Part shown: one piece after another, positions 2,416 to 6,907 of the stretch | Layout: each line of letters starts with the position of its first letter | How positions within the stretch are numbered: the first letter of the stretch is position 1 | Assembly (NCBI GenBank): GCA_947504205.1 | Contig: CANNGL010000001.1 | Location: 744,001-808,000 of the forward strand | Origin: an uncultured Litoreibacter sp. | GTDB lineage: Bacteria > Pseudomonadota > Alphaproteobacteria > Rhodobacterales > Rhodobacteraceae | Length of the DNA stretch: 64,000 nucleotides | Reading direction: 5' to 3' | Position numbers and translations under genes: made by a program | The notes under the pieces: model-generated | Told to the model about the DNA's origin: nothing | Database searches by the model: none | Seen by the model: only the letters and a program-made list of their open reading frames with translations

Positions 2416-2728
2416 AGGCGGCCATCATATCCTCTAAAGGTATCCCGTTGACGCTCATGCCAGTAACGTTGGCATTGGTAATTGCCAAGCCCTTTAGGTT
2501 CGCGTTGTTGATGGAGGCGTTGGAGAGGTTCACATTTTCAAAACGTGCATCGGTCAGGTTGGCATCGTCAAAGACCAAGGCGACGGCACTCACGTCACGA
2601 AAGACCGCGCTGGTCAGGTGCGAGTCACTGATCTCGACGCCTTTAAGGCTCACTCGCCTAAACTGCGACCCGCACAAATACATGTTGTCGATGTTGAGCT
2701 TGTCTCTGCCAGCCTCTTGCGCACTCAT
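2390..2728 (-). CDS. Pentapeptide-repeat protein
   Basis: A(N/D)LxxxxFxN-type repeats (DDANLTDARFENVNLSNASINNANLKGLAITNANV); start codon overlaps the bdhA stop (ATGA). Confidence 0.8.
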   Translation of the reverse strand: MSAQEAGRDKLNIDNMYLCGSQFRRVSLKGVEISDSHLTSAVFRDVSAVALVFDDANLTDARFENVNLSNASINNANLKGLAITNANVTGMSVNGIPLEDMMAAYEAATSRG

Positions 2729-3510
2729 AGCGCTGTCCATCCACCGTCAACGCTTATGGTTGTTCCGGTAATCTGTTCAGCCGCGCTGGAGCATAGAAAA
2801 GCCGCAACGCCACCTAATTGTTCTGTCGTCGCAAACTCTTTCGAAGGCTGACGTTCGAGAATGACCTTCTGCGTCACTTCTTCCTCGGTCATGTCGTATT
2901 TCTTTGCGGTGTCGGGGATTTGAGCTTCGACCAGTGGTGTTAACACATAGCCTGGGCAAATCGCATTCGCTGTAATTGGCTCTTGAGCGGTCTCAAGCGC
3001 CACAACCTTCGTCATACCAACGACGCCGTGCTTGGCCGTCACATAGGCCGATTTGTAAGGGGAGGCCGTTAAACCGTGGGCCGAGGCGATGTTGATCACG
3101 CGCCCCCAGCCTGCTTTACGCATGAGGGGCAGGGCGGTCGCCGTGGTATGAAAGACTGAAGACAGCATAATCGCGATAATCGCATCCCATTTCTCTACCG
3201 GAAATTCATCAATAGGGGCGACGTGTTGAATGCCCGCATTGTTGACAAGGACGTCTACCCCACCCAACGCGTCAGAGGCTTGTTCCACCAGAGCCCGCGC
3301 CTCTGCACCTTTTGACAGGTCCGCCTTGATATAATTTGCCTTCACTGAATGCGCCTCGGCGATCTCTCGCGCCAAAGCATGATCTTCATCGCGGTCAGTA
3401 TACGAGTTCAAGACAACATTCGCGCCAGCCTTGGCGAGCTCTTTGGCAATCCCCAAGCCAATGCCTGAGTTTGAGCCGGTGATAACGGCAGACTTCCCTT
3501 TGAGTGACAT
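2725..3510 (-). CDS. bdhA: 3-hydroxybutyrate dehydrogenase (SDR)
   Basis: MSLKGKSAVITGSNSGIGLGIA Rossmann motif, NNAG, Y-x3-K (YKSAYVTAKHG), C-terminal ITGTTISVDGGWTA; start set at 3510. Confidence 0.9.
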   Translation of the reverse strand: MSLKGKSAVITGSNSGIGLGIAKELAKAGANVVLNSYTDRDEDHALAREIAEAHSVKANYIKADLSKGAEARALVEQASDALGGVDVLVNNAGIQHVAPIDEFPVEKWDAIIAIMLSSVFHTTATALPLMRKAGWGRVINIASAHGLTASPYKSAYVTAKHGVVGMTKVVALETAQEPITANAICPGYVLTPLVEAQIPDTAKKYDMTEEEVTQKVILERQPSKEFATTEQLGGVAAFLCSSAAEQITGTTISVDGGWTAL

Positions 3511-3623: not shown

Positions 3624-3652
3624 AAAAAAAACGCCAGCACAAGGCTGGCGTT
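3624..3652 (-). terminator. Rho-independent terminator on the minus strand
   Basis: Perfect 9-bp stem AACGCCAGC/GCTGGCGTT, 5-nt loop, followed on the minus strand by eight T. Confidence 0.85.
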
Positions 3653-3699
3653 AAGTTATTGAGGCAGGTTTCATACAGGCAAGAAACCTATCGAGCAGT
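3624..3699 (-). ncRNA. Candidate small RNA or attenuated 5' leader of bdhA
   Basis: Minus-strand promoter-like TTGGCT-N17-TATAAA just upstream, hairpin AGGTTTC/GAAACCT (3666-3689), then a strong intrinsic terminator; no supported ORF inside. Confidence 0.6.
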
Positions 3700-3705
3700 A
3701 CGATC

Positions 3706-3734
3706 TTTATAAGCAATGGTTTGCTCTGAGCCAA
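3706..3734 (-). promoter_or_regulatory. Putative sigma70-type promoter (minus strand)
   Basis: -35 TTGGCT (3729-3734), 17-bp spacer, -10 TATAAA (3706-3711). Confidence 0.6.
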
Positions 3735-3813
3735 GCTAAAAGTTTGAAAAGGTTGAGAACCCTCTCTAGGCTGCGGATCAATAAGAACAGGCAGATCGAG
3801 GATTGTTGCTGAA

Positions 3814-5625
3814 ATGAAACCGAATTATTTCCGGGCGGCAAGCATAATTGCTGGTCTCGCGGCTTTGATGTTGGGAACCACAGCGAGCGCTGAGCCAAAA
3901 CATGGCATAGCTATGTATGGTGAGCCTGCATTGCCACCGGATTTTGTGTCTCTGCCATACGTCAACACCGATGCGCCCACTGGCGGGCGAATTGTTCAAG
4001 GGGAGGTCGGCAGCTTTGATTCACTTAACCCGCATATCCGAAAAGGCCGCGTTCCATGGCAGCTGCGGTTTTTGGCATTCGAAAGCCTGATGGGTCGTTC
4101 TTGGGACGAACCTTTCACGCTATATGGCCTGTTGGCCGAATCGATTGAGGTGGGGGAGGACGGAAGCTGGGTCGAATTTACGCTCAATCCATCGGCGCGA
4201 TTCTCGGACGGATCACCAGTGACGACCGAGGACGTTCTTTGGTCCTTCGAGACCTTGGGCACTCAAGGCCACGGACGGTACGAAGCCACATGGTCCAAGA
4301 TCAAATCATCCACTTCACCATCCGATGGCACGGTTCGGTTTGAGTTCAACGAACAAAATCGCGAATTGGCTCTGATCATGGGCCTTCGCCCAATCCTGAA
4401 AAAAGCCCAGTGGGACGGAAAGGATTTCGCGCAAAGCGGGTTGGACACGATCCCAATTTCGTCAGCGCCCTATGTGATCGATGACTTTCAGGCCGGGCGC
4501 TTTGTTTCGCTCAAACGCAATGCCGACTACTGGGGCAGGGACATCCCGTTTCGGCGCGGCACCAACAATCTCGATGAAATCCGGATGGAGTTCTACGGTG
4601 ATTCAACAGCCATGTTTGAGGCGTTCAAGGCGGGTGTGCTGAACACCATGCGTGAGACCAATGCCGCCAAGTGGCAAATCCAATACGATTTTCCGCGCAT
4701 CGCCAATGGTAGCTTTGTGAAATCCATCATTCCGCATGAACGCCCGTCGGGTATGACGGGCTTCGTTATGAACACGCGAAATCCCATCTTCAAGGATTGG
4801 CGGGTGCGTCAGGCGATGATCCAAGCCTTCAACTTCGAGTTCATCAATGAACGTTTGAATGCAGGCGCTCTGCCGCGCATCACTTCATATTTCTCCAACT
4901 CACGACTGGGAATGAAGGACGGGAAAGCGACCGGACGGGTTGCCGAATTTCTTGAACCATTCACCGAGGATCTGCTGCCAGGAACACTGGACGGCTATGC
5001 GCTGCCGGCATCAGATGGTTCAGAGCGGAATCGCAAGGGCATCCGCGAAGCGATACGCCTGTTTGAAGAGGCAGGTTGGACAGTCAAAGACGGTGTGATG
5101 ACCAATGAAGATGGCACGCCATTTGTTTTTGAGATCGTGTTACAAAATGGCAGTTCTGAAAACACGGCCATCATCAACATCTACACTCAGGCATTGGAAC
5201 GGTTGGGTATTTTCCCCTCGGTATCGAGCATGGATTCCGCTCAGTTCCGCGAGCGTATGACCAACTACGATTTCGACATGACATATGAGCGTTGGGGACT
5301 GTCCTTAAGCCCGGGCAATGAACAAACGCGCTATTGGGGATCTGAGGGTGTCAAGAATCCGGGCAGCCGCAACCTGATGGGCATGGAAAGCCCCGCCGCA
5401 GAAGAGATGATACGGCGAATGTTGAATTCCGAAAATCAGGACGACTATGTCGCGGCGGTTCAAGCCTTGGATCGTATATTGACTGCGGGTCGCTACGTGA
5501 TCCCAATCTGGTACTCAGACGAATCCTATCTGGCGCATGACAAACGGCTCAAATACCCGGATGTGATCCCAGCCTACGGAGACTGGATCGGGTTTCAACC
5601 CGATGTCTGGTGGTGGGAACAATAA
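3814..5625 (+). CDS. ABC transporter extracellular solute-binding protein family 5 (oligopeptide / YejA-like)
   Basis: Signal peptide, HGIAMYGEPALPPDFVSLPYVNTDAP, long SBP_bac_5 architecture. Confidence 0.88.
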   Translation: MKPNYFRAASIIAGLAALMLGTTASAEPKHGIAMYGEPALPPDFVSLPYVNTDAPTGGRIVQGEVGSFDSLNPHIRKGRVPWQLRFLAFESLMGRSWDEPFTLYGLLAESIEVGEDGSWVEFTLNPSARFSDGSPVTTEDVLWSFETLGTQGHGRYEATWSKIKSSTSPSDGTVRFEFNEQNRELALIMGLRPILKKAQWDGKDFAQSGLDTIPISSAPYVIDDFQAGRFVSLKRNADYWGRDIPFRRGTNNLDEIRMEFYGDSTAMFEAFKAGVLNTMRETNAAKWQIQYDFPRIANGSFVKSIIPHERPSGMTGFVMNTRNPIFKDWRVRQAMIQAFNFEFINERLNAGALPRITSYFSNSRLGMKDGKATGRVAEFLEPFTEDLLPGTLDGYALPASDGSERNRKGIREAIRLFEEAGWTVKDGVMTNEDGTPFVFEIVLQNGSSENTAIINIYTQALERLGIFPSVSSMDSAQFRERMTNYDFDMTYERWGLSLSPGNEQTRYWGSEGVKNPGSRNLMGMESPAAEEMIRRMLNSENQDDYVAAVQALDRILTAGRYVIPIWYSDESYLAHDKRLKYPDVIPAYGDWIGFQPDVWWWEQ

Positions 5626-6161
5626 CCCCGCTTTTTCAGCAGGCGTTGCCAGAGCATTGGCAACAGATGCCCGAGCAATGGCGTGCCGTGCATGCTTTCA
5701 CTGGTTGTCAAACGCTCACGGGCGTCGCGCGGGTTGATCGTGGGCATTCGGTCCTCTCCCGGATCATTGGTTACGTTTTCAGGTTTCCGGCAGCTTCAGA
5801 CACGGTGCCCGTCTCCGTAGAGATGTGCCAAACCGATGACGGCGAGCTCTGGGTGCGGAATTTTGGACAATCGCAGTTTCGATCCAAGCTGACCTATGCG
5901 GGAAATGGTCGTCTCTATGAACGCTTCGGGACATTCAAATTCGAACTTTCTCTTCCGGTTCAGAATAGCGAGATGGCCATGCCGGTCGCGCGCGGCTGGT
6001 TTCTGGGCATACCCCTGCCCAAGTGGATATTGCCTGAATCCGAGACGCGCGAATATGTCGAAGAGTCACGTTTCAGGTTTGATGTGCGACTGTCTGCGCC
6101 ACTCGCAGGATTTATCGTGCATTATCAGGGATGGCTCGAGATCGAGGATCAGCCGCATTAG
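5610..6161 (+). CDS. DUF4166 domain-containing protein
   Basis: Resembles DUF4166 proteins (LPEHWQQMPEQWRAVH...); overlaps the upstream CDS by 16 nt. Confidence 0.7.
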   Translation: MVGTITPLFQQALPEHWQQMPEQWRAVHAFTGCQTLTGVARVDRGHSVLSRIIGYVFRFPAASDTVPVSVEMCQTDDGELWVRNFGQSQFRSKLTYAGNGRLYERFGTFKFELSLPVQNSEMAMPVARGWFLGIPLPKWILPESETREYVEESRFRFDVRLSAPLAGFIVHYQGWLEIEDQPH

Positions 6162-6175
6162 CGGGTCGCCCGGTT

Positions 6176-6907
6176 CTACTGCGCCGCGAGCGCGGGCTTT
6201 TCGCTGACGTCTTTTCCGTTCGGATAAACAAGCCCAGCCGAAATAACCAGTTTCGCCGCGTCTTCTACGCTCATGTCTAGTTCGACAATGTCACTTTTTG
6301 GCACGAACAACAGAAAGCCCGAGGTCGGGTTGGGCGTGGTCGGCAAGAACACAGAGACCTTCTGTTCCTCAACAGGTATGCCGGATGCTATTTCGCCCTT
6401 TGCTTCGGTCGAGATGAAGGCGATCGCCCAAAGGCCTCTGCGCGGGTATTCAATAAGGCAGGCCTTGTCGAAAGAGGTTTCACGCTGCGAGAACACTGTT
6501 TCTGCGATCTGTTTGGCGCCGTTGTAGATCGAGCGGACAACCGGCATCCGGTCAACAACGCTTTCGGCCCAACGCAGGAAGGAGCGCCCCAGTATACCCT
6601 TTGCCATCCAGCCCACGAGAACGGTGAAGAGCAGGAATATGATCACGCCCACGCCGCGAACGTTCACTTTGACAGGCTCTTCGGGATATCCAAGCGCCCA
6701 GTTTACCAACGCCTCAGGCTGATAGGCATTGGGCACGAATGGCCAAACCCAGCTATCGATCCAGCCAACAACGGTCCAGATCAACCATGCCGTCAATCCG
6801 ATCGGAGCCACAACAATAAGTCCTGCCAGAAAGTTGCCGCGAATGCGGGCAATCAGGCCGGGCTTCTTGGGCCGCTTGGCAAGCTCGTCTTGTTCGTTCT
6901 CAAACAT
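6176..6907 (-). CDS. DUF502 family membrane protein
   Basis: Two N-terminal TM segments followed by VPVVRSIYNGAKQIAETVF and FVPKSDIVELDMSVEDAAKLVISAG motifs. Confidence 0.87.
   Translation of the reverse strand: MFENEQDELAKRPKKPGLIARIRGNFLAGLIVVAPIGLTAWLIWTVVGWIDSWVWPFVPNAYQPEALVNWALGYPEEPVKVNVRGVGVIIFLLFTVLVGWMAKGILGRSFLRWAESVVDRMPVVRSIYNGAKQIAETVFSQRETSFDKACLIEYPRRGLWAIAFISTEAKGEIASGIPVEEQKVSVFLPTTPNPTSGFLLFVPKSDIVELDMSVEDAAKLVISAGLVYPNGKDVSEKPALAAQ

Follow-up and report, generated by a model that had tools for sequence, protein, structure and literature searches.

Introduction

SorX and SorY are two small RNAs (sRNAs) of Rhodobacter sphaeroides that are bound by Hfq. They co-immunoprecipitate with it, as does CcsR1; SorY limits malate import, and SorX limits spermidine uptake (PMC5036791). 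SorY has its own promoter (PMC6238624). Further described sRNAs of alphaproteobacteria are AbcR1 and AbcR2 (alpha-r15), small Hfq-binding RNAs of 114–120 nt with three stem-loops and CU-rich anti-Shine-Dalgarno motifs, located beside a LysR-type gene, and MmgR (alpha-r8), a 77-nt Hfq-dependent trans-sRNA with an anti-SD motif (PMC7143759). MmgR is linked to PHB granules in Sinorhizobium. For R. sphaeroides, one list gives 79 sRNAs, 38 of them orphan (PMC8625941), and microarray probes have been designed for 144 sRNA candidates (PMC3688512). Ninety-nine sRNAs have been reported for Ruegeria pomeroyi (PMC4809877) and 167 for Paracoccus denitrificans (PMC5107571).

Here we describe an sRNA gene of 76 nt on the minus strand at 3624..3699 of the window, the whole 64,000-nt stretch of DNA that was analysed. 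It is probably a free-standing, single-copy gene found throughout the Rhodobacterales, and its product most likely is a trans-acting regulator that pairs with its targets with the assistance of Hfq.

Results

Comparison with described RNA families

The sRNA has the same order of parts as SorX and SorY, and all are about 73–83 nt long: a 5' hairpin is followed by a pyrimidine-rich single-stranded linker ending in ACUU and by an intrinsic terminator. The linker itself differs, being CCUGCCUCAAUAACUU in the sRNA and CCUCCCUGUUGGACUU in SorX/SorY. Because of this SorX/SorY-like build, we take the sRNA, by analogy, for a trans-acting base-pairing regulator.

No family of Rfam 15 reaches its gathering threshold for the sRNA, and in the whole window only a tRNA passes. 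The best sub-threshold match, to asX2, scores 25 bits versus 70 and is on the wrong strand. Membership of the SorY family (RF02651) was rejected, the score being 13.8 bits and the cut-off 111 (E = 0.8–2.2), and the best SorY match of the genome is at another locus. There was no match to SorX (RF02784, cut-off 46.6) at E up to 5–10, and the CCUCCCUGUUGGAC linker is absent. In the reverse comparison, a covariance model of the sRNA, which includes one sequence from a plasmid record, gives SorY 23 bits versus 105 for itself, with an E of about 0.002 on a rough calibration. A distant common origin of the sRNA and SorY is thus conceivable. MmgR/suhB (RF00519, cut-off 41 bits) also gave no match at E up to 5–10; unlike MmgR, the sRNA is not found in Rhizobiales, and its proximity to bdhA is not constant. 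The sRNA has no Rfam match to AbcR either. AbcR1 and AbcR2 regulate the mRNAs of ABC-transporter binding proteins, an analogy which suggests that such mRNAs are a plausible class of targets.

The genome from which the window comes has two SorX-type sRNAs of its own, at about 607,038–607,112 of G000:C1 (L164:1039–1113) and about 979,927–980,003 of G000:C2 (L165:1028–1104), both on the minus strand. They score 49.3 and 64.8 bits (cut-off 46.6), have the CCUCCCUGUUGGAC linker in common, and resemble the sRNA in build, with a hairpin, a CCUCCCUG linker and a terminator. SorY/SorX-like matches occur in 53 of 61 family genomes (E ≤ 0.001), one to three in most of them.

Parts of the sRNA gene

The promoter has a −35 box TTGGCT (3729..3734) and a −10 box TATAAA (3706..3711) on the minus strand, with a spacer of 17 nt and a predicted +1 at 3699; ACUGCUCG is the conserved sequence where the primary 5' end is expected. 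The RNA, ACUGCUCGAUAGGUUUCUUGCCUGUAUGAAACCUGCCUCAAUAACUUAACGCCAGCCUUGUGCUGGCGUUUUUUUU, starts with a near-invariant block of 41 nt (3659..3699, minus) that takes in the 5' tail, hairpin 1 and the start of the linker and is presumed to be the functional part. Hairpin 1 (3666..3689) consists of 7 bp, AGGUUUC/GAAACCU, with arms at 3689–3683 (AGGTTTC) and 3672–3666 (GAAACCT) of the minus strand, and a 10-nt loop, UUGCCUGUAU. The single-stranded linker (3652..3665, minus), which is pyrimidine-rich on its 5' side, is a possible anti-Shine-Dalgarno or pairing region; the pyrimidine-rich stretch CCUGCCUC extends across the hairpin 1 arm and the linker. The intrinsic terminator (3624..3652, minus), AACGCCAGC-CTTGT-GCTGGCGTT with eight U, ranks first among 20 terminator-like sites that a scan of the window's first 10 kb listed. 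A fold of −23.5 kcal/mol is predicted for the 77-nt strand, versus a mean of −12.7 for shuffled sequences (z = −4.25), and none of 200 shuffles equals it.

A first-pass annotation had placed a promoter, the AGGTTTC/GAAACCT hairpin and a terminator with eight U here, and all of its coordinates were right when the minus strand was read again. A simple sigma-70 scan missed the promoter because it requires T as the final base of the −10 box. Nevertheless, the conservation of the −35 box, the −10 box and the start, with free spacers between them, supports the promoter. It was also confirmed that the minus strand has no gene from the terminator to the divergent gene at 3814, as previously stated; neither of the two short ORFs overlapping the region contains a Pfam domain, and the 63-aa ORF at 3707–3898 gave no Pfam match.

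Distribution

With the 214-bp intergenic region as query, a match was found in 36 of 36 other genomes of the family and in none of 24 other alphaproteobacteria, "family" and "order" being the kinship labels of the genome collection searched. The part conserved in the diverged genomes of this search runs from the −10 box to the terminator. A query of promoter and RNA found the sRNA, mostly in a single copy, in 195 of 199 family genomes, a sample drawn across the family with nearly one genome per genus; the four negative genomes are assemblies that are 73–92% complete. Furthermore, the 22-mer hairpin core GGTTTCTTGCCTGTATGAAACC is present exactly in all 101 genomes of the order, and a reversed control pattern gave 0 matches. 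Conservation of this extent is far beyond chance.

The sRNA is absent from 286 other alphaproteobacteria. Among 290 genomes from across the class, proper matches are seen only in family members, and the remaining five are fragments of 19–33 nt with E of 0.002–0.009. A mobile or phage origin was rejected, as there is no match in 50,697 phage records. The matches in plasmid records are only to Paracoccus replicons of 1.46–2.24 Mb. These named Paracoccus records place the family of genomes in Rhodobacterales; NCBI taxonomy has Paracoccus under Paracoccaceae. Two genomes contain second, degraded-looking relatives, L106 (G216:C2, about 1,019,892) and L107 (G175:C101). L106 retains TGCTCGATA and TTTCTTGCCTGTATGAA, with the stem partner lost, and scores 28 bits. 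These could be paralogues or relics.

Conservation and structure

Across 88 distinct loci, conservation covers the −35 box, the −10 box and positions +1 to about +41 of the RNA, and leaves out the spacer that separates the two boxes and most of the bases from the −10 box to +1; the selection of these loci itself fixed +3 to +39, so that the edges of conservation rest on +1, +2, +40 and the flanks. The sharp edge exactly at the predicted +1, with free bases just before it, supports the start site at 3699, where the first-pass annotation had also put it.

The core can be viewed without this bias in a diversity-enriched alignment of 35 rows, of which only five (L091, L094, L097, L101 and L103) deviate inside the 41-nt block. 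Diverged members (L088–L104) share the core and differ markedly in their promoters, which have a −35 box of the CTTG type. In this alignment, the terminator helix shows compensatory changes at seven of its eight pairs. Hairpin 1 is invariant except for one mismatch in one row, and none of the 35 rows shows a compensatory change in it. Overall, 98.1% of the alignment cells are paired, versus 34–51% with slid partners, and RNAalifold recovers both helices unaided. The compensated terminator together with the frozen 5' part shows that the block acts as RNA, the terminator being maintained for its structure and the 5' portion for its sequence.

The invariance of the paired stem exceeds what most base-pairing sRNAs need, and this counts against the pairing view. 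A sequence-specific protein partner, with the RNA serving as a sponge, scaffold or protein cofactor, would account for both the frozen stem and the frozen loop; the lack of any compensatory change in hairpin 1 and the practical invariance of the 41 nt over about 200 genera both favour such a partner. However, the RNA has no match to known protein-binding RNA families, it contains no GGA and hence no CsrA-sponge signature, and its general build is that of an Hfq-type sRNA. We consider it unlikely, then, that the RNA works mainly through a protein of this kind instead of by base pairing.

The divergent gene and the shared promoter region

The gene at 3814..5625 on the plus strand encodes a YejA/MbnE-type peptide ABC-transporter substrate-binding protein (SBP; SBP_bac_5) of 603 aa, as judged from profile and PDB matches and synteny. 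The best PDB matches are to MbnE of Methylocystis parvus, a family-5 solute-binding protein (4ony) and 7z8e, and E. coli-type YejA entries come lower; 3lvu is a partial chain. The SBP gene is followed by an overlapping ORF of 183 aa (5610–6161) and then by a minus-strand gene (6176–6907). No permease or ATPase genes follow it, so the binding protein appears to be an orphan here. Of 99 loci, 95 have this gene divergent from the sRNA; one of the remaining four is truncated by a contig end. The sRNA thus has a constant partner in the SBP gene, which had been overlooked in the first-pass annotation.

The predicted promoter of the SBP gene, TTGAAA-N17-TAGGCT (3744..3772, plus; consensus TTGnnn-N17-TAnnnT), has conserved TA...T positions in its −10 box and abuts the −35 box of the sRNA promoter. 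The conserved 16-mer CAAACTTTTAGCTTGG (3731..3746, minus), which is essentially specific to this locus, is therefore most simply read as two back-to-back −35 boxes. We rejected it as a regulon-wide operator, as copies with ≤2 mismatches beyond the locus are no commoner than those of a reversed control.

This arrangement raises the question of a local function, in which the sRNA would act on the SBP gene through back-to-back promoter transcription or by base pairing to its mRNA. The constant divergence of the SBP gene, the abutting −35 boxes and a distance from the sRNA +1 to the SBP ATG that is 115 nt in 38 loci would fit this. On the other hand, the two transcripts do not overlap, and there is no conserved pairing with the start region of either SBP (mean z −0.2 to −0.7) or bdhA. 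Moreover, in the diverged loci L089, L092 and L098, the invariant core is kept without an adjoining SBP gene; these three are helpful for telling local from trans functions. A local action thus seems rather improbable to us.

bdhA and the question of attenuation

On the other side of the sRNA, bdhA (2725..3510, minus), for 3-hydroxybutyrate dehydrogenase, is on the same strand and starts 114 nt past the terminator; the earlier identification of this gene was correct (TIGR01963, 367 bits versus a cut-off of 307). A small pentapeptide-repeat protein is encoded at 2390–2740 on the minus strand, overlapping the 3' end of bdhA, and next comes a patatin-like phospholipase gene (1363–2415). These three genes look like one operon.

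The first-pass annotation had left open whether the terminator ends an sRNA or is a premature one in a bdhA leader, which would control hydroxybutyrate/PHB metabolism by attenuation. The first alternative is supported by the sRNA's own promoter and terminator, the conservation across the order of precisely this unit, the compensatory changes in the terminator and the independence from the next gene. What speaks for a leader is the position of bdhA, which in 61 of 94 distinct loci follows the sRNA in the same orientation and no more than 450 nt away. At the remaining 33 loci, bdhA is either missing or more distant; 19 of them have a first long downstream ORF that is encoded on the other strand, with the RNA unchanged, which makes a leader function impossible there; the neighbours were counted with mechanical ORFs, so that single cases may err, and the trend is clear. 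Thus, the constant position and strand of a regulated gene that a bdhA leader would have are not seen in these 94 loci. Furthermore, the sequence from the terminator to bdhA is unconserved, and no alternative antiterminator pairing is apparent, as hairpin 1 and the terminator can form together. The attenuator reading is refuted as a general explanation, and we regard it as very improbable that the sRNA is a bdhA leader at all.

Finally, a 7-residue peptide, MKPASIT, can hardly be the product, since, even though the core contains ATG AAA CCT GCC TCA ATA ACT TAA, L097, L101 and L103 lack the start codon, ATG is followed immediately by a stop in L094, the frame stays open as far as the terminator in L037 and L095, and there is no Shine-Dalgarno sequence at the proper spacing.

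Discussion

Comparative genomics establishes the predicted gene as a unit that does not depend on bdhA, together with the boundaries and structure of this unit. In sequence and conservation, the sRNA is an independent intergenic unit with its own promoter and terminator, as in the trans-acting Hfq-dependent class, and the source genome encodes Hfq (PF17209, 116 bits), as is also required for this class. From the Hfq gene and the U8 tail we infer that the ~76-nt RNA would be bound by Hfq and act in trans. The invariant 5' tail, the loop UUGCCUGUAU and the linker CCUGCCUC would then pair with the translation-initiation regions of several unlinked mRNAs. Pairing would block translation or trigger decay by RNase E, in the manner of SorX/SorY and AbcR. 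If many targets share one stretch of the RNA, the 41 nt, including the stem, would barely change while the terminator drifts.

What are the targets? The duplex energies of the sRNA with all genes of the window show no outlier, the best z being −1.8 with accessibility left out of the calculation. Exact 11-mer complements of the linker and loop in 37 genomes give no conserved site at translation starts. For the loop, none is above control in these genomes; for the linker, complements are about twice as frequent as the control in the family, and the 31 places cluster away from starts, solely within a single coding region and a single repeated element. The stretch around TATTGAGGCAG is identical in three genomes of two genera (G000:C2:786189, L134; G017:C7, L157; G021:C6, L163), and is probably a mobile or recently transferred element.

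It is also possible, and we put this forward tentatively, that the RNA is an order-defining sRNA of the last common ancestor of the Rhodobacterales, a global regulator that possibly combines protein binding with base pairing and belongs to no described family or function.

The sRNA may well be an unnamed entry in a published RNA-seq or sRNA catalogue. Genome G096 probably belongs to R. sphaeroides 2.4.1, as the SorY match in it starts at 1,632,645 and the published 5' end of SorY is 1,632,642 (PMC6238624). The G096 copy of the sRNA, at about 1,443,996–1,444,071, is flanked on its two sides by the SBP gene and bdhA. The R. sphaeroides candidate RSs1386 would presumably fall roughly in this region. 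StsR (RSs0827), a 72-nt orphan sRNA of R. sphaeroides, is like the sRNA in length and orphan status, and its expected position differs: RSs0827 should be near 0.88 Mb, as estimated from the roughly linear RSs numbering (RSs1543 at 1.633 Mb, RSs2430 at 2.566 Mb), versus about 1.444 Mb for the sRNA. For "Intergenic 134" and "Intergenic 60" of P. denitrificans (PMC5107571), identity with the sRNA was not confirmed; both reportedly have homologues beyond the Rhodobacterales and the sRNA has none there, which counts against identity. The core sequence was not found in the literature searched, nor was a functional study. Given this, and the lack of an Rfam match, we call the sRNA a new family of a known type.

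The roseobacters, Rhodobacter and Paracoccus all belong to the Rhodobacterales, an order of major bacteria of the sea and the soil. A core sRNA that is kept nearly letter for letter over about 200 genera and is missing from Rfam 15 represents an annotation gap, which one covariance model would close. As the gene is well bounded, present in a single copy and deletable in any model strain, the role of a universally kept alphaproteobacterial sRNA becomes directly testable.
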